Shown here piece after piece: positions 14,188 through 56,569 of a DNA stretch of 64,000 nucleotides. The DNA is from Sulfurimonas sp. HSL-3221 (GTDB taxonomy: Bacteria; Campylobacterota; Campylobacteria; Campylobacterales; Sulfurimonadaceae): assembly GCF_021044585.1 (NCBI RefSeq), contig NZ_CP087998.1, positions 620,001 through 684,000 on the forward strand, in the 5' to 3' direction. The position numbers were made by a program, and so were the translations under genes. Numbering within the stretch: position 1 is the first letter of the stretch; each line of letters starts with the position of its first letter. The notes under the pieces were generated by a model. The model worked only from the letters and a program-made list of their open reading frames with translations, was not told where the DNA came from and did not search any database.

Positions 14188-15207
14188 ATGGCTTTTATCA
14201 CCCTAGACCGCAAAGCGTTTCACCACAATCTCAATATGATCTCCAAACAGCTCCAGAGCCGTGACAAGATCGCACTGGTCCTCAAGGACAATGCCTACGG
14301 GCACGGGTTGAAGCAGATCGCGCAGGTCGCGAGCAAATACGGGATCACCCGGGCCGTCGTCCGCAGCATTGACGAAGCGGAGCAGGTCCGGGACAAGTTC
14401 CATTACATCCTCGTCCTTGCGGATACGCCCTCAGTGCTGATGCCCGCGTACTGTTTTACCATAAATGCGATGGAGCAGATCAAGAGCTTTCCCCCCGGCA
14501 GCCGGGTGGAGCTCAAGGTCGATACAGGGATGCACCGCAACGGGGTCCCGCCGCACCTGCTGCATCACGCTTTTGAAAAGATCAGCAAAAACGGCTTGAA
14601 GCTCGAAGGGGTAATGACCCACCACCGCAGTGCGGATGAGATGGGAAGCGAATATTTCTGGCAGCGCCACACCTTTGAAAGCGTCAAGCGCGAAGCCCTG
14701 ATGCTGGCCAAACGCTACGGCTTCACGAAGCTCCGCTTTCACTCCGCGAACTCCGCGGCGACCTTTAGAAGCCACGAGGGACATGATGATATGGTGCGTG
14801 TCGGTATCGCGGCGTACGGCTGTCTGGAGATGCCCGAGGGCCTGCCGCAGCCGGACCTGCTCCCGATTCTTTCGCTCTGGGGCGAAAAGATCTCCCAGCG
14901 GCGGCTCAACCAGGGCGAACGCGTCGGATACGGCGGGTGTTTCAGTGCCGATCGTCAACTGCAGGTCAGCAACTACGACGTCGGGTATGCCGACGGGCTG
15001 CTGCGGACGGCCTCGAACCGCTACAGCGCCCCCGGCGGCGAAAAAATGCTGGGGCGCGTCTCCATGGACAACTGCAGCTTTGCCGGCGACGCGGACGAGT
15101 TGCTCATCTTCAACGATGCCCGCAGCTACGCGCAGGCGGCCGGGACCATCTCTTACGAGGTCCTTGTCGGCCTGGACCCCCGCTTGCCGCGCAAGATCAT
15201 CGAGTAG
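14188..15207 (+). CDS. alr: Alanine racemase
   Basis: Alr is the PLP enzyme that makes D-alanine for peptidoglycan. The 339-residue protein is of normal, slightly short length. The PLP lysine is in ALVLKDNAYGHG (about residues 28-39). The second catalytic residue, a tyrosine, should lie in the ERVGYGG region (about residue 250). The barrel motif ELKVDTGMHRNG and the end ISYEVLVGLDPRLPR are also family-typical. A TATAAT box lies 5 bases before the ATG and no ribosome site is seen, so the message is probably leaderless. Confidence 0.95.
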   Translation: MAFITLDRKAFHHNLNMISKQLQSRDKIALVLKDNAYGHGLKQIAQVASKYGITRAVVRSIDEAEQVRDKFHYILVLADTPSVLMPAYCFTINAMEQIKSFPPGSRVELKVDTGMHRNGVPPHLLHHAFEKISKNGLKLEGVMTHHRSADEMGSEYFWQRHTFESVKREALMLAKRYGFTKLRFHSANSAATFRSHEGHDDMVRVGIAAYGCLEMPEGLPQPDLLPILSLWGEKISQRRLNQGERVGYGGCFSADRQLQVSNYDVGYADGLLRTASNRYSAPGGEKMLGRVSMDNCSFAGDADELLIFNDARSYAQAAGTISYEVLVGLDPRLPRKIIE

Positions 15208-49058: not shown

Positions 49059-49703
49059 TTAGCCGGCATGATAGAAAAAGCCCCCGATTCCCAGCGTAAA
49101 GACAAGATTACCGTAGAGGGAGTGCTCAATGGCGCTCATGGCGACGGAACGGGTACGCAGATAGGTACGCATAAAGAGCACACCTCCCAGAAAACTCAGG
49201 ATAACGGCGACGGGATTGCCGAACACACCGTGTACCAGGGAAAAGAGCAGGGCGTTAAACAGGATGAGAAGCCGCCGGTCGGCGATGAGGTGTTCAAACC
49301 GGTAGGTGAAAAAGCCCCGGAAGACGATCTCCTGCGCCAGGGCGGAGAGCAGCGGGTAAAGGAGCATCACCAGCAGCCACAGCCCCGGCCGCTCGCGGGG
49401 AAACGCAAAAAGCAGTCCAGGGAAAAGAGCCCAAATCGCGACATCCAATAACGTTCCCAAAATGATGAATCGGACAAGCACCCTCAAAAGTTCGTTGCCG
49501 TCGATATGCCACCGCAGATGCGTGTTACCCTCTTTTCGCAGTCCATAGAGGGCATAGAGCATGCCAAGCCACAGCAGCGGCATGACGGCGAACTTCGGCA
49601 GCAAACCCGTGATGATCAGCATCGGAAGTGCGAAGTAAAGCAGCACTGTTTCGAACAGGAGACGGAGCCGGGAAGAGATCACGGTGTCGGTAAAGGGGGG
49701 CAC
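49059..49703 (-). CDS. CPBP-family intramembrane metalloprotease
   Basis: The 214-residue membrane protein has six or more membrane helices and the three CPBP (CAAX protease/Abi) motifs: AQEIVFRGFF with the tandem E and R (about 124-133), NALLFSLVHGVFGN (about 148-161), and HSLYGNLVF (about 195-203). Such proteases cleave membrane substrates and include bacteriocin self-immunity proteins. The start is GTG; a diverged ribosome site is seen. It converges on purL and lies next to, but is not coupled with, the giant cassette. Confidence 0.85.
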   Translation of the reverse strand: MPPFTDTVISSRLRLLFETVLLYFALPMLIITGLLPKFAVMPLLWLGMLYALYGLRKEGNTHLRWHIDGNELLRVLVRFIILGTLLDVAIWALFPGLLFAFPRERPGLWLLVMLLYPLLSALAQEIVFRGFFTYRFEHLIADRRLLILFNALLFSLVHGVFGNPVAVILSFLGGVLFMRTYLRTRSVAMSAIEHSLYGNLVFTLGIGGFFYHAG

Positions 49704-49771
49704 GTCTGTTCCATTTTTTATCGAAAATTCTTTTGAGTTTCAGGGTGCCCTTTTCAGGGCACGTTGATTGC

Positions 49772-51967
49772 TCAAAGGAGCAGTGTGGCCGTCACGAAGC
49801 CGCTTTGCCCTCCGCCGTCGTTGACCTGCTGGACACCGATGGTGACGGTACGCCCGGCACTCTGCGGGAGGGGGAGTGAAAGCGAATCGAACAGATGGTA
49901 GTTCTGGTAAGGGGATTGCGCCCGCTGCTCTCCGGGAACAGCTTCCGCAGCGAAATCACCGGGGGTGCTGTCAGCCCACCAGACGGTGTAAAGACCGGCA
50001 GAGAGTGGATTGGTAAAGGTCAGCTTGATCATCGTACGGTTATAGAAATCGACGCCGAGAGGTTCGGCAATGAACGGCGGCGGAACCGTGGGAGTTACCG
50101 GGATGCGTACCGCCCGGACGGTATTGCCGGCGGGGCCCACTTTTCCAAGGGCCTTGAGGCGCAGATGGTACGCCACAGTGTCGGATACCCCGTCGGGGCC
50201 GGGGAGAGGGTCGGGCACGTTGAGTTCGGTCGGAAGGGTTGCGGGGTCGAACTCTGCGACTTTTGTCCAGAGGTCAAGATGCGTCGGCATCTGATGGAGT
50301 TCGGCGGCTCCGGCAAGAAAAAGGGTAGTGCCGCCGTCTCCCGGTTCAAAGAAGACGTCGCTGCCCGAGACGCCCGTTACTTCCGCTTTGAACGGCGGGG
50401 CGACGAGGAATCCTCCCAGGAAATCGTCCAGTGTACCTGCCCCCGCAACGGTGGTGCGGTAGCGGTTGGCGCCGACGTAGACCGGTGCGGACACTGTGAC
50501 CGGTTCCAGACGGGGCTGACCCGCCGCGCCGCTCTTTTGCCGGTAGACATGCACCTTGGCCCCGGCATCTTCTTTGATGACTTTGTCGGGCAGCCAGCCG
50601 GGGAGCGCCGGCGATTCCGTTTGGCGTATCAGGGTTGCGGTCCCGCTCTGATAGCGTGCCTCTACCAACGGCGGGGCCGGCGGTTCATACCCAAAGGAGA
50701 GGCCGGTCCATGGCGACCACATACTGAAGGTGCTTTCGCGATCCCACGCATCGGTGGCGCAGATCCTGCAGCGGACTTGGACATCATGGAAAGGGACTTC
50801 CCGGCGCCGGGTCAGGTTGCCTTCGCCCGGCAGCTCATCGGGAAAGCGGGTGCGGTTCTCGATACTCTCCTTTAGCAGGTCGCCCCCGATAGAAGGGCTT
50901 TTTGAAGTCTCCTCTTCAAGACGTACTCCCAGGGCATCTGCAGCCGTCTGTTGCCAGTGCAGGTTGTAGCTGGCCTCGAAGACGGGTTTATCCGTTTTGG
51001 CATCGATGCCGAAATGCACTTTGGGATCACCGTAGAGGGGCACACCGGGCGCAGTAAGATCGGCAACGGGACGGGAGAGACAGATGACGAGATTGCTGGG
51101 GCCGACCCGTTTGTCTTTTTCTCTGACGCGGTAGACGGCGGTCTTGCCCGAGGGTATCTTGTCGAGCAGCAGGTCACGTTTGAGATCGTCTATCTTCGGC
51201 CACTGGGTCCGGGGGCCGTCGAAAAAGCCGTGCCCGAACAGAAGGGCGTGTTCCCATCGAAGGGCTGCCATCATGCCGAAGATCTCCCAGGGGGAGGCTT
51301 CCCCATCTTCAAGATCGGCCGGGTCCGAAGCCTGACCTTCCTGTGCCGCCGTGACAAACTCCTGCCACTCCGCCGCATCGAGGGTCGTCGGTATCGAGCT
51401 GCGCGGTGCCACGGCTGCCAAGTCGGCATCGAGGGTCTTTTTGACACGGATACGGGCAATCTCCTCAAAGGAGAGCCCCCGGTCATCGAAGAGGTCGAGG
51501 CTGCGGAAGTTTTCGAAACGACTTCCCATGCCGAGCAGTTCAAACCGGTCCATGTCTGCCGCTTCGACCAGGACGACCTCCCCGTCGGTGACGCTGCGTT
51601 CGGCCACCAGGGTGTCCGTCGCGCTATCAAATACCCGAAGCCGGGTCGACATGCCGCGATAGGTAAAGCGGACAGCTTGGACGGGGGCCGGCAGCTTAAA
51701 TCGGCAGACAATCAATCCGTCGGGAATGATGTCGCCGTGCACGTTCCACCAGCTGGCGGGCACACTGAGCAGCGCCGTCGATTCGCCGGGGGTTTCCGGT
51801 TTGCGGGGGGAGAGTTCGTCCATCCATGCCCGTTCGACGATGATGGTATCGGGCAGTCCGAGAAAACCGCCGGAACCGTCCGGCGCTTGCAGAGGATAGG
51901 ACCAGCGCAAGCGGTGGCCTGTGGGTGCATCGTCGACCCAACCGAGTCCTGTAAGATAGAGTTTCAT
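49772..51967 (-). CDS. Large beta-rich protein of unknown function, second gene of the giant cassette
   Basis: The 731-residue protein begins MKLYLTGLGWVDDAPTGHRLRWSYPL; there is no signal peptide or membrane helix. Much of it reads as fibronectin-III-like beta domains: segments such as YRVREKDKRVGPSNLVICLSRP, VQVRCRICATDAWDRESTFSMWSPW and VFLRV-type strands are followed by proline-rich junctions (EPPAPPLVEARY, PVTPTVPPPFIAEP). It contains many Trp and Tyr. Its ATG overlaps the stop of the 1361-residue gene upstream by four bases, so the two proteins are made together and probably work together. I do not recognise a family and do not assign a function. Confidence 0.75.
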   Translation of the reverse strand: MKLYLTGLGWVDDAPTGHRLRWSYPLQAPDGSGGFLGLPDTIIVERAWMDELSPRKPETPGESTALLSVPASWWNVHGDIIPDGLIVCRFKLPAPVQAVRFTYRGMSTRLRVFDSATDTLVAERSVTDGEVVLVEAADMDRFELLGMGSRFENFRSLDLFDDRGLSFEEIARIRVKKTLDADLAAVAPRSSIPTTLDAAEWQEFVTAAQEGQASDPADLEDGEASPWEIFGMMAALRWEHALLFGHGFFDGPRTQWPKIDDLKRDLLLDKIPSGKTAVYRVREKDKRVGPSNLVICLSRPVADLTAPGVPLYGDPKVHFGIDAKTDKPVFEASYNLHWQQTAADALGVRLEEETSKSPSIGGDLLKESIENRTRFPDELPGEGNLTRRREVPFHDVQVRCRICATDAWDRESTFSMWSPWTGLSFGYEPPAPPLVEARYQSGTATLIRQTESPALPGWLPDKVIKEDAGAKVHVYRQKSGAAGQPRLEPVTVSAPVYVGANRYRTTVAGAGTLDDFLGGFLVAPPFKAEVTGVSGSDVFFEPGDGGTTLFLAGAAELHQMPTHLDLWTKVAEFDPATLPTELNVPDPLPGPDGVSDTVAYHLRLKALGKVGPAGNTVRAVRIPVTPTVPPPFIAEPLGVDFYNRTMIKLTFTNPLSAGLYTVWWADSTPGDFAAEAVPGEQRAQSPYQNYHLFDSLSLPLPQSAGRTVTIGVQQVNDGGGQSGFVTATLLL

Positions 51968-54900
51968 TCCATGCCTCCTTTATCTGACACGTCGCTGTCG
52001 AGCCCAACGTCGGGAGCGGACGTTTTCGGCACGTTTTTGGTTTCGGCTGCGGAGAGGGTACGAATGGCGCTCCCAAGGTTCTCCGGAAGGTCGGCAAGGC
52101 GTTTTGAGACGTTTTCAAGCTGCTTCACGGCGGAAGAGAACGCATCCAGCGCGGGCTGATCCGGTGTTTGAAGCGGCGGTGTCGCGTCGCCTTTGAGGCG
52201 TTCTTTGATCCAGTCAGGGTCGACCCGGGGGTCGATCAGGACATCGATGATGTCCCATGGGATATCGTAAATGACAACAAGCCGTTCGAGCAGCCCGGCA
52301 GGAATTTCGATGGGCGAGGCCGGCAGCGGCCACCGCTCCCCGAACGGCTGTATGAACGTCAGGGCAATCTGCTCGGTCGGGCCGCCGACGGCCGGTGAGG
52401 GGCGCAGGCGCGGCAGCCCCGGCAACGTCGTGTCAAACCGGAGTGTCAAGGTATATTCGCCGCGGGGCAGCCGGGTGCGGTGCCCGGCCAGCCCCCCGAC
52501 CAGGAATGCGGATGTGGCATCCGGACTCGGCAGGATTTCGACGGTCAGTTCAAGAGGATGGCGCAGCTCGTATCCGGTAGGGCAGTCGCCGCTCTGTTCG
52601 ACATGTCTGATCTGCAGCGACGCTTCGACACGGCGCCAATCCACCGGTTCGGGTGTTCGGACCCACAGCGCCAAAGGACGGCCGCTGCCGTCGGTGACAG
52701 CCTCTATGGTCGTACTCTCGACGGTATCATTGATCCCGTCGAGCATATCGCCGCTCCCGTCATTGAAGCGGGCGCCGGATGCCGCAGCGAACCGCGCGAA
52801 GCGCTCGGCACTGAGAGCATCAAGGGGGCTGATCCACTGTGTCATCGCGCTCGGGAGGCGCCAGTTGACGGGCGGGACACTCAGCTCTTCGGGGTAGAGA
52901 GGTTGGATCAGATCGCCGTTGCCGATCAGTCGGTCGTTCTCGAAAACAGGGCGGAATGATTCGGCGACAGAAAGCGTTTTCCGTGCGAAAATCGGATCGA
53001 CACGGTTTCCTTTTCGCACCGGACGGTGGGGCTTCTGATACGAGACGGGGATGATGGAAGGGCAGCAGGCACTGTCGGTGCGCCCGCTGGGGTTGTAACG
53101 CACGGTGAGACACCGGCTGTCCCAGTCGAGGTGCTCTGTGAAGGAGGCGAACATGGAGACATAGCAGTTCCAGCCGTCGAGCTTCACCTCGCCGCGTTCG
53201 GGGTGATCGAACGCAAGGGCCACCGCGGCCGGTCCGCTTTGGGCCAGGAGGTCGGGAAGGACGATCTCCTGATCCGGCGAGACCGTGCCGCAGTGTTCCG
53301 CTATCCATTGACGCGACTGCCCCGGGAGGTAGGAGTCGCCGTCACCGTTCGGACCCGGAATGAGGTCTTGGACGACGGTTTCCCCGCTTTCCCAGACGAT
53401 GCGCATCCGCAGTGGATTGAAGATCGCGTCCATATAGGGGACCAAGAAGCGTACTGCCGGTCGGTAATCCTGGTAAATCGGGAAACCGAATCCGTACATC
53501 GTGGGGTTCCAGGGCAGTGATTCGTCAAAAAAGATCCGATTGTCACCGATGGTGGTGGAGCGGATATAGGGACGCAGGGTTTCGGGGAAGTCAATGTTGA
53601 AGGTATCGTTGAGTTCCCATTCGGTCGTTTTACTGCTGGGCAGGCCCCCGCCGGGATACTCCGCAACGGAGGTGCCGGAGAGTGACACGGCGTACCGGCC
53701 CGGTGTCAGGACAACTTTCTCCTGCCAGTTACAGCTGCGTTGGCGTGCTTCAGTATAGCGTACGGCATAGAGCAGCAGGTCGCGATCCTTGCTGCCGGAC
53801 GAGATGACAATGGTCGCTTCGGGTTGCGGCAGCTGAATGGTCAGGGCCATCAGCTGCAGACTGTCGTAAGGACTCCAGACGACATCGGATACGGTAAAGA
53901 CACCATACTTGGTCTCAATCCGCATTTTCCGATCGTATTCGAGATTTCCAACCAGATACAGCGTGATCTGCTCTACTTCGACAGGGAGGTCGGTCGCCGT
54001 ACGGAAAGCAAGTTCAAACCGTTCGCTTTTAAAGACCCGAGTCGGCAACGCCGGCTGGAACACCGTTTCAAGCGAGCCCATGTTCTGAATGGGGTCGACG
54101 AGCATCTCATTGAAACGTCGGGGATTGATGAAGTGCTCCTCCGCGCCGTACCCGAAGTTCACCTCACAGGTACGCCCCGGGGTTTCATAGGTGCTCTCTA
54201 TCGTATCCACGTGGGGAACAACCCAGGCAAAGGGGTCCTGGCCGTTGATGTGCAGCCGTGCGGTATCGCCGCCCGGTCCTGCCGCCCAAACCGCCTGGAT
54301 GCCGGCGACGGTCGTACCCTGGGCGATGTCGGTCACTGTGAGGGAGTCCAGACGGTGGGTGACGGTGTAGCCTCCCTCCGTGGCAGCGCTGATGACGGAG
54401 CCGACAACCTTGCCGGTCTGGTCGATGACGCGAGTGCTGAACGGTATCACGATCTCGACGTCAGGCCAGGCCCCGCGCGCTTCGGCGTTGAACTCCCACT
54501 GCCGTCCGGTCAGGGCATGCAGCAGCGCCGGTTTCATCGCGCCGCTGTCCGATTCGGCCCCCCGTTTCCAGGTCCCGGCCAGCAGCGGCGAGGCGACGGC
54601 AGGCGCTTCGGGCTCTTCATCCCCCAGGGTCAGGGTCTTTTCGCCTTTGATATCGGGGATTGGCCAGGGAAGGTTCAGTTTGTATTTAAAGGTGACATCC
54701 AGTTCCGTCGGATCGGGCGTATGTCCCAGGACCTCCGCCGCGCCGCTCAGGGCAAACTTGAATTTCCACACTTTGAGCCCCAGCTCGCCCCAGATCTTGA
54801 ACAGCCCTTCGAGCAGGACCGGGTTCCATCCGATGGTGGCGGCGACGGCCGCGCCGATCCGGGCGAAGAGGGTGATGATACTCCACTTCCACTCGCCGCC

Positions 54901-56049
54901 GATCGAAATGCCGGCGCCGAAGGCCATGCGGTAATTGTTGATCATAAAGAAGAGTTCGGCGCGGAGCAGGTCGGAGAGGATTTTGCCGCTGATCTGCTTC
55001 TGCTGGGTACCAAGGTTGATATACCAGGTAGTCGGGTTCTCGAAGGAGAAGAAGGCGTCGAGCACCCCGTTTGCACGGAGCAGATAGGTCTTTCCCTCTT
55101 TGGGAATGTTGACCTTGACACCCATGCCGAGCGCCATGGAGGCCGAGGCAATGTCGACGACGATGTACCCTTCGACCTGCGCCGAGTCGCTGGAGATCAG
55201 CTTGCCCGTACCACCCAGGATAAAGACCGGTCCCGGGGTCAGCACCGCCAGACCGATCGGCTCGAGTTTGAGTACGTAGCCGTTGTCCGCCAGGGTGACC
55301 AGGTCCGTTCGGATGCCCACGCCCACGGCTGTCTGGTCGATGGGGCCGGCCTGCCAGCGGTCGAGTTCCTTGTTCTTTGCCCAGCGGACATAATCATTGG
55401 CGGCCGGGTCGGTGACAGGCAGGCCGTTCTTTTCGAGACGGGCGATGAAATTGTAGGCGAAGTCGCCTCCCATCCCGGCGAGTCCCAGGCCGGTACTGCC
55501 CAGTGGGACGGGTGCCGGAAGGTCGACATCCAGCCCGATCATGACGCCGCGGTCGCTCAGGCCGCCCAGGAAGAGGTCCAGGCCGAAACCGGCGGGCTCT
55601 ATTTTCAGCGCGCCGCGTCCCATCCAGACCCCGTCGTCATATCCCAATCCAAGCTGGGCATTGAAGACCTTCTTTTTCCTGATCTTGAGGTCGCCCATGA
55701 CGGTAATCCATTCGATGATGGTGATGGGAGAACCCCCGCTCATCAAATCGACGTCCGTAGAGATGGTGACCTCCACACGCATAAAGACCGATTCCATCCC
55801 CTTGAACAGGGGAATGCGTCCCCGGATCAGAAAGGTGATATGGTCTACTTCCGGATCGGATGTGGCGGTATAATCCGTCACCCGTACCAGCGGTGAGGAT
55901 GCCAGCGGCTTTTCGCTGCCGACTTCACTTGCAAGCTCTTTGAGCTTGGTTTCAATTTGCGTTTCTCCCCATGTGGCGATATCTTCCCACATGTCTCGGA
56001 GAGCCTGCCAGATGATTTCCCTAAAAAGATTGTCAAGCCATTGATCCAT
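51964..56049 (-). CDS. Giant beta-rich protein of unknown function, 1361 residues
   Basis: This is the largest gene here. It has no signal peptide; the N-terminus (MDQWLDNLFREIIWQALRDM) is amphipathic helical. Residues about 50-460 form a strand-rich domain with a long series of amphipathic and glycine-rich strands (LGLGYDDGVWMGRGALKIEP, LFLGGLSDRGVMIGLDVDL, PAPVPLGSTGLGLAGMGGDF). This recalls uncharacterised large proteins, possibly DUF6603, but I cannot verify it. Beta domains follow (about 500-1230), then a helical C-terminus with a polar tail. An AGGGG site precedes the ATG; the 731-residue gene overlaps its stop. Confidence 0.75.
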   Translation of the reverse strand: MDQWLDNLFREIIWQALRDMWEDIATWGETQIETKLKELASEVGSEKPLASSPLVRVTDYTATSDPEVDHITFLIRGRIPLFKGMESVFMRVEVTISTDVDLMSGGSPITIIEWITVMGDLKIRKKKVFNAQLGLGYDDGVWMGRGALKIEPAGFGLDLFLGGLSDRGVMIGLDVDLPAPVPLGSTGLGLAGMGGDFAYNFIARLEKNGLPVTDPAANDYVRWAKNKELDRWQAGPIDQTAVGVGIRTDLVTLADNGYVLKLEPIGLAVLTPGPVFILGGTGKLISSDSAQVEGYIVVDIASASMALGMGVKVNIPKEGKTYLLRANGVLDAFFSFENPTTWYINLGTQQKQISGKILSDLLRAELFFMINNYRMAFGAGISIGGEWKWSIITLFARIGAAVAATIGWNPVLLEGLFKIWGELGLKVWKFKFALSGAAEVLGHTPDPTELDVTFKYKLNLPWPIPDIKGEKTLTLGDEEPEAPAVASPLLAGTWKRGAESDSGAMKPALLHALTGRQWEFNAEARGAWPDVEIVIPFSTRVIDQTGKVVGSVISAATEGGYTVTHRLDSLTVTDIAQGTTVAGIQAVWAAGPGGDTARLHINGQDPFAWVVPHVDTIESTYETPGRTCEVNFGYGAEEHFINPRRFNEMLVDPIQNMGSLETVFQPALPTRVFKSERFELAFRTATDLPVEVEQITLYLVGNLEYDRKMRIETKYGVFTVSDVVWSPYDSLQLMALTIQLPQPEATIVISSGSKDRDLLLYAVRYTEARQRSCNWQEKVVLTPGRYAVSLSGTSVAEYPGGGLPSSKTTEWELNDTFNIDFPETLRPYIRSTTIGDNRIFFDESLPWNPTMYGFGFPIYQDYRPAVRFLVPYMDAIFNPLRMRIVWESGETVVQDLIPGPNGDGDSYLPGQSRQWIAEHCGTVSPDQEIVLPDLLAQSGPAAVALAFDHPERGEVKLDGWNCYVSMFASFTEHLDWDSRCLTVRYNPSGRTDSACCPSIIPVSYQKPHRPVRKGNRVDPIFARKTLSVAESFRPVFENDRLIGNGDLIQPLYPEELSVPPVNWRLPSAMTQWISPLDALSAERFARFAAASGARFNDGSGDMLDGINDTVESTTIEAVTDGSGRPLALWVRTPEPVDWRRVEASLQIRHVEQSGDCPTGYELRHPLELTVEILPSPDATSAFLVGGLAGHRTRLPRGEYTLTLRFDTTLPGLPRLRPSPAVGGPTEQIALTFIQPFGERWPLPASPIEIPAGLLERLVVIYDIPWDIIDVLIDPRVDPDWIKERLKGDATPPLQTPDQPALDAFSSAVKQLENVSKRLADLPENLGSAIRTLSAAETKNVPKTSAPDVGLDSDVSDKGGME

Positions 56050-56569
56050 CGTTCCCGCCCCTTTGCGTTTGCCTGCGTTCCGTTTGACGTTTCCCTAACG
56101 ACTCCTACCGTGAGCTATGCCTATTACGCCCCTGCTGTATGCATACTAAAAAACATACATTCATATTAATAATTAAAAAGACGTACTTGATAATTCTACA
56201 AGTTGTAGCTTAAAAGATGCAACAAGATGCCGTGTATAAGTATTGGGAGGAAAACGGGCGTGGCCGGAAGGGATGGCATCGTCGGGGGGCTTGCTGTGAA
56301 AAAGGGGAGAGGGACGGTCGACGGAGTGTCAGCGCATTTTGAATGCCAGCGTGAAATCCTCGTAGTCCAGGTAGGTGAAGCGGAAAAAGAAGCTATCCAG
56401 ACGCTTGCAGCACTTTGTAAAGATATTGGTAGACTCTGCTTTCATGTGTTCCATCATAGTACGCTTCTATTACCTCCGGGGGACAGATCCGCAACCGTTT
56501 GATAACATCGTGGGAAAAGCAGTGATGATAGACATCGGTCCCGAAACGATCAAAGCGGTGCCGAAGCAG
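56050..56569. other. AT-rich gap with operator-like palindromes and a possible tiny gene
   Basis: The 520 bases before the giant cassette are far more AT-rich than the surroundings, chiefly 56140-56225. Two perfect inverted repeats are seen: CTACAA-G-TTGTAG (56196-56208) and GTATGCATAC (near 56140-56150). Minus-strand TATTAAT/TATGAAT runs could be -10 boxes for the 1361-residue gene. The rest holds one possible small gene (56329-56457, minus). I see nothing else. Confidence 0.5.
56329..56457 (-). CDS. Possible 42-residue protein, doubtful
   Basis: The frame encodes a protein with the middle KCCKRLDSFFFRFTYLDYED and a basic end. Cys-Cys, clustered Phe and Asp, and a normal codon pattern argue for coding, but the GGAGG site is 15 bases from the ATG, too far for a good ribosome site. 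It could be a remnant of a longer gene. Family unknown. Confidence 0.3.
   Translation of the reverse strand: MMEHMKAESTNIFTKCCKRLDSFFFRFTYLDYEDFTLAFKMR

Follow-up and report, generated by a model that had tools for sequence, protein, structure and literature searches.

Layout of a two-gene insertion in Sulfurimonas

We analysed a 64,000-nucleotide stretch of the Sulfurimonas sp. HSL-3221 genome (contig NZ_CP087998.1, positions 620,001 to 684,000 of the forward strand; hereafter the window), in which two overlapping genes on the minus strand encode giant proteins, here called A and B. Gene A (51964-56049) encodes 1361 residues and gene B (49772-51967), a partner with no database family, encodes 731 residues; the lengths, coordinates and ATGA junction given by a first-pass annotation made from the sequence alone were exact. 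The genes are translationally coupled. The stop codon of A and the start codon of B overlap at 51964-51967 on the minus strand, and B has a strong ribosome-binding site (AAAGGAGGCATGGAATGA), the Shine-Dalgarno sequence AAAGGAGG lying just upstream of its ATG within the 3' end of A. The start codon of A, also ATG, is preceded by a Shine-Dalgarno-like AAAGGGG, carried by a 520-bp gap of lower G+C content (56050-56569, 48%) that is partly kept in a congener (83.5% over ~480 bp). An inverted repeat in the 68-bp spacer after B (49704-49771), GTGCCCT-GAAA-AGGGCAC, could form a hairpin at the transcript end; on inspection it has no T tail.

An insertion of 6.67 kb (49653-56325) between purL and a CHASE2/HD-GYP gene contains A and B and no other gene. 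The site is empty in the congener G005, and because 77 bp there connect window positions 49652 and 56326, the whole insertion comprises A, B and their promoter region, as expected of the accessory cassette that had been annotated. No direct or inverted repeats of at least 10 bp were found at the insertion ends. Only one of the seven congeners searched, G004, carries both genes, with 97% (A) and 96% (B) identity; A was found in none of 60 relatives besides G004, and B in no other genome of a 397-genome sample of the phylum. A further congener, G007, has two unrelated genes at the same site, coding for proteins of 800 aa and 369 aa (VWA-like), and lacks the CAAX protease there (L073 8998-12623, in G007 652000-669000), so the insertion site is variable.

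A and B are under purifying selection, with ratios of nonsynonymous to synonymous divergence (dN/dS) of 0.07 and 0.09, respectively, against G004. Their synonymous divergence (0.22 for A and 0.25 for B) is comparable to that of the HD-GYP gene (0.29) and purL (0.39). Since the synonymous divergence resembles that of the neighbours and dN/dS is low, the two genes are not new arrivals and have been kept by selection. Recent import judged by composition was considered and ruled out, the codon usage and G+C content of A and B being host-like. Long open reading frames with host-like codons, low dN/dS and conserved co-occurrence elsewhere argue that the pair is more than a chance feature.

Composition and domain searches of A and B

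Protein A comprises a predicted N-terminal helix (residues ~3-42), a Gly-rich beta-strand core (~50-480), some 800 residues that probably form beta domains, and a tail that is Pro-rich/helical; its N-terminus forms an amphipathic stretch. Residues 50-460 contain 12.2% Gly and zero Cys, and residues 50-480 show a beta-amphipathic periodicity (z = 4.9 against shuffled sequences) that was negative in the PurL and HD-GYP controls, which agrees with the Gly-rich strand-repeat domain annotated at 50-460. B carries the N-terminal motif HRLRWSYP...GLPDTIIVER. Both proteins are acidic (net charge -49 for A and -25 for B). They had been described as lacking signal peptides and membrane anchors, and indeed no signal peptide is evident from either sequence and no transmembrane segment was found (maximum 19-residue Kyte-Doolittle value 1.55 in A and 1.25 in B). 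Their supposed richness in Trp and Tyr was half right: Trp is enriched (2.6% in A and 2.3% in B versus 0.9% in 15 other window proteins), whereas Tyr (2.5% and 2.2%) lies below the 3.3% of those proteins.

Sequence searches of Pfam, NCBIfam, PHROGs, PADLOC and PDB with A and B returned zero matches, in line with the absence of a recognised family, and the profile of the A core found none in PDB. No nuclease, NTPase or sensor domain was recognised in A or B. The fibronectin-III (FN3)-like modules attributed to both proteins did not survive the domain test, in which neither matched Pfam fn3 up to E 1; motifs resembling FN3 can be made out only by eye. AlphaFold2 models of A 1-560 (pLDDT 39) and B (pLDDT 33) were discarded for too low confidence; the model of A shows ~22 long strands in succession.

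The core of A and DUF6603

DUF6603 proteins are giant and widespread, and their function is not known. The A core (residues 170-480) matches giant proteins of Mycetohabitans, Rhizobium tropici, Azospirillum oryzae, Paracoccus, Mucilaginibacter, Sphingobacterium and others, and is common to giant proteins of Proteobacteria, Bacteroidota and Chloroflexota. The description of A and B as having no recognised relatives therefore has to be corrected, although none of the relatives has a known function. A 13-sequence profile of the core (A7), whose first row is A residues 140-490 (encoded at 54580-55632, minus strand), was compared by hhalign with a profile of true DUF6603 domains (A8). The two aligned over 323 columns, covering A residues 170-480, with a probability of 95.9% and E 5.3e-9. 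By this profile comparison, A 170-480 is a remote homologue of DUF6603. The first-pass annotation had associated A with this family on a hunch, which the match makes right at the superfamily level; a direct match is lacking, as PF20248 does not match A up to E 1, below the Pfam gathering cut-off. Nor does PF20248 match anything in the window's own genome. Three distant A-core members match it weakly, and two core members weakly match OMP_b-brl. We found no mention of DUF6603 or PF20248 in the open-access papers searched. The true PF20248 loci of Sphingobacteriales (L056-L063) are conserved sets of four genes, encoding the DUF6603 protein together with proteins of ~500 aa, ~310 aa (YGVPTEYLIPDPRLLPSESIRFFFLD) and ~1340 aa (GIHLHWxLPD), and those scanned have no Pfam family.

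A is accompanied by a giant partner in distant lineages

Full-length relatives of both proteins were found outside the genus. On a megaplasmid of Azospirillum thermophilum, A and B are adjacent in the same order, with 42% and 38.5% identity, respectively (tblastn against plasmids). A scan of 84,980 genomes revealed a metagenome-assembled genome (MAG) of Anaerolineae encoding A at 58% identity with the start of B directly behind it; the reading frame of this B is damaged near 14265 and then ended by the contig end. No other full-length A was found in wider searches of Anaerolineae and Chloroflexota. The B proteins of the window, A. thermophilum and Anaerolineae are clearly homologous to one another. 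A-B pairs in the same order are thus present in three unrelated lineages, and the two genes are co-inherited. In the window, G004, A. thermophilum and the Anaerolineae MAG alike, the gene for an A-core protein has a giant partner gene as its same-strand neighbour. The A. thermophilum A gene is split in two frames near residue 130 (L005 20001-24220), an apparent frameshift that represents a sequencing error or a decayed copy, and an RTX-type calcium-binding protein gene adjoins the pair.

Giant genes also stand beside the more distant A-like proteins. An ATGA overlap joins the A-like gene to a gene for 1225 aa in R. tropici and to one for 1083 aa in A. oryzae; in Paracoccus a 1114-aa gene follows it directly, and in Mycetohabitans it comes after a 1322-aa gene and a PLD gene. 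The R. tropici locus contains a degenerate PLD-like gene, recognised by eye. Among 301 genomes sampled from one Bacteroidota order, Sphingobacteriales, 20 carry the A core; a same-strand B-like gene lies beside it in all 20, and in none of the 20 negative genomes examined. A giant partner is found beside the A-like gene in three of four places in Chloroflexota. The coupling of A and B proposed at the outset thus held in the co-occurrence survey. One Chloroflexota genome (L116 10154-13749) has the B-PLD-A order of Mycetohabitans, with genes for two tandem PLD-domain proteins separating the B-like gene from the A-like one.

After addition of the Chloroflexota sequences, the B-like proteins of Proteobacteria and Chloroflexota aligned with those of Bacteroidota in three collinear hhalign segments (best E 2.8e-7; reversed control 0.9), and on this profile evidence they constitute one family. 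For the B proteins of the window, A. thermophilum and Anaerolineae, homology to that larger family is only suggested, by the best hhalign match in the deepest comparison (E 0.03 versus 0.30 reversed) and by an N-terminal LRW motif common to them and the B-like partners, seen by eye. Window B ranked 17 in an hmmsearch of the family (E 0.19), and pairwise and shallow profile tests against the distant partners found no homology.

Toxin operons in Sphingobacteriales

In the Sphingobacteriales operons, genes for proteins of ~720 aa and then ~1000 aa usually come before a small variable gene, which is followed by A, B and tail-fibre-like genes in that order. The ~1000-aa proteins have an alignable N-terminal part, and their last 150 residues fall into at least five unrelated types. 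Two of these variable C-termini score above the curated cut-off as EndoU_bacteria nucleases, others are deaminase-like below the cut-off, and one of the small genes is SMI1/KNR4 immunity-like, slightly below the cut-off. The genes after B share a common N-terminus (PPITDAYIDEIIK...NKTQGVKLRELIK) and have variable tails like tail fibres. Judged by these domain matches, the operons are polymorphic toxin cassettes with A and B among their constant parts. No description of these two-giant toxin operons (L094-L108, L048-L053) was found in the literature searched. The toxin relation suggested earlier for the window pair is supported only via these distant operons. Divergent from a Sphingobacterium toxin operon lies a gene for a 1781-aa protein with CHAT protease, LCAT-like hydrolase and DUF7379 domains (L026 13180-18525).

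Proposed role and alternative explanations

We tentatively favour the explanation that A and B are a co-inherited pair that assembles into a single large complex, soluble and rich in beta strands, which would serve as the chassis of a carrier, conflict or surface system not yet described. The window pair would be the minimal two-gene member of a widespread, undescribed system composed of a DUF6603-like giant and a giant partner. In relatives, the A-type protein and the giant B-type partner form the constant part, while the neighbouring genes vary: nuclease or deaminase toxins with immunity and tail-fibre-like genes in Sphingobacteriales, and PLD-like enzymes in Chloroflexota, Burkholderiales and Rhizobiales. 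In conflicts with other cells, the pair may carry, display or deliver activities of this kind, most likely by way of the amphipathic strand-repeat core of A, and would presumably be secreted. A bolder version, which we consider unlikely, is that the window holds the minimal form of an undescribed two-giant delivery platform, in which a strand-repeat body resembling DUF6603 is combined with an FN3-like partner. With neither a contractile tail nor a classical secretion signal, this platform would convey exchangeable toxins or enzymes from cell to cell, and it would have spread horizontally across several phyla.

Several observations weigh against a carrier role. The window cassette has no toxin, immunity, fibre or PLD gene, and no toxin domain was found in A or B themselves. 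Neither protein has a secretion signal, and no structure model is usable (pLDDT 33-39). The operon context comes from relatives that are 21-30% identical to A, in the core only. The best hhalign match of window B to the toxin-associated B-like family, in the WEHALLFGHGFFD region, is not significant (E 0.03 versus 0.30 reversed), and an additional genome, G431, is the only A-positive one without a detectable B-like gene. Neither the window's genome nor G004 encodes the tail tube PF06841, which is also missing from more than half of the A-positive genomes (14 of 24). A contractile machine is therefore not a general requirement. As the cassette contains no toxin or enzyme, the pair would act alone, as a surface or storage assembly, or with cargo encoded elsewhere.

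The lack of recognised cargo also keeps two other explanations in play. A and B may exit the cell non-classically and form an adhesive or protective layer, a surface or matrix assembly without toxin. This would suit giant, beta-rich, Trp-rich and acidic proteins in a toxin-free cassette, as well as the fibre-like genes of distant relatives and the RTX-type gene beside the Azospirillum pair. We regard it as somewhat unlikely, because the cassette has no signal peptide, sorting signal or secretion genes, and because A-like and B-like proteins accompany toxin and immunity genes, not adhesin export systems. Alternatively, the amphipathic core of A could form a groove or barrel that binds lipids or other hydrophobic ligands, with PLD-like enzymes as occasional partners. 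Consistent with this are the strong beta-amphipathicity of A 50-480, the successive strands of the low-confidence model, the weak OMP_b-brl matches, the PLD-like neighbours in Mycetohabitans and Chloroflexota (and by eye in R. tropici) and the LCAT/CHAT protein adjoining one Sphingobacterium operon. However, a model with pLDDT 39 does not establish the fold, the window has no lipid enzyme and PLD-family proteins can also be nucleases, which makes lipid binding distinctly unlikely.

A role in anti-phage or anti-plasmid defence would be in keeping with the variable genomic site (empty in G005, other cargo in G007), the sporadic distribution and the toxins in distant loci; as PADLOC gave no match and neither protein has a recognised nuclease, NTPase or sensor domain, it appears highly improbable. 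Still more remote is a component of a phage-tail-like or contractile-injection (eCIS) particle, an explanation already largely refuted for the window. In favour of the phage-tail relation proposed earlier are the tail-fibre-like genes downstream of B-like genes in Sphingobacteriales. In the Anaerolineae MAG, moreover, an eCIS_core (PF13699) protein is encoded ~7 kb upstream of A (L010 997-2823), and PF06841 tail-tube genes lie on another contig. Against these stand the distribution of the tail tube, the absence of any eCIS_core over threshold from the window's genome, and the searches of PHROGs and of phage and viral collections, in which phage matches were at chance level and no viral contig matched.

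On the chassis explanation, the pair may frame an undescribed toxin-carrying or cell-surface system that the bacterium acquired as a unit. The survey connects a divergent branch of DUF6603 with a gene for a giant partner; in Bacteroidota it adds a connection with polymorphic toxins, immunity genes and tail-fibre-like genes. These links yield a testable hypothesis for the function of DUF6603 proteins. At 6.3 kb, with two genes and no toxin, the window cassette is the most compact version found and would be convenient for biochemistry and structure determination.

Comparison with known systems

The relation to DUF6603 (PF20248) lies in the alignment of A 170-480 and in the encoding of one giant beside another in both cases; A itself has no match to PF20248, and the true Sphingobacteriales DUF6603 loci are separate, with their own four-gene set. 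eCIS (PMC8213781) share the association with toxins and tail-fibre-like genes, in distant relatives, and differ from the window's genome, which has neither tail tube nor eCIS core. The TANFOR polymorphic toxins of Bacteroidetes, proposed type IX substrates (PMC7073777), are likewise large proteins whose C-terminal toxins vary, and FN3 domains have been reported in them. Type IX annotation is lacking in the operons described here, and no TANFOR model of NCBIfam matched the five toxins scanned. The Sphingobacteriales operons differ from the window cassette in their added ~720-aa, toxin, immunity and tail-fibre-like genes and in the size of A (~2100 aa) and B (~1650 aa), and homology of that B to window B is only suggested; what they have in common with it is an A core 21-30% identical and the succession of A and a giant partner on the same strand.

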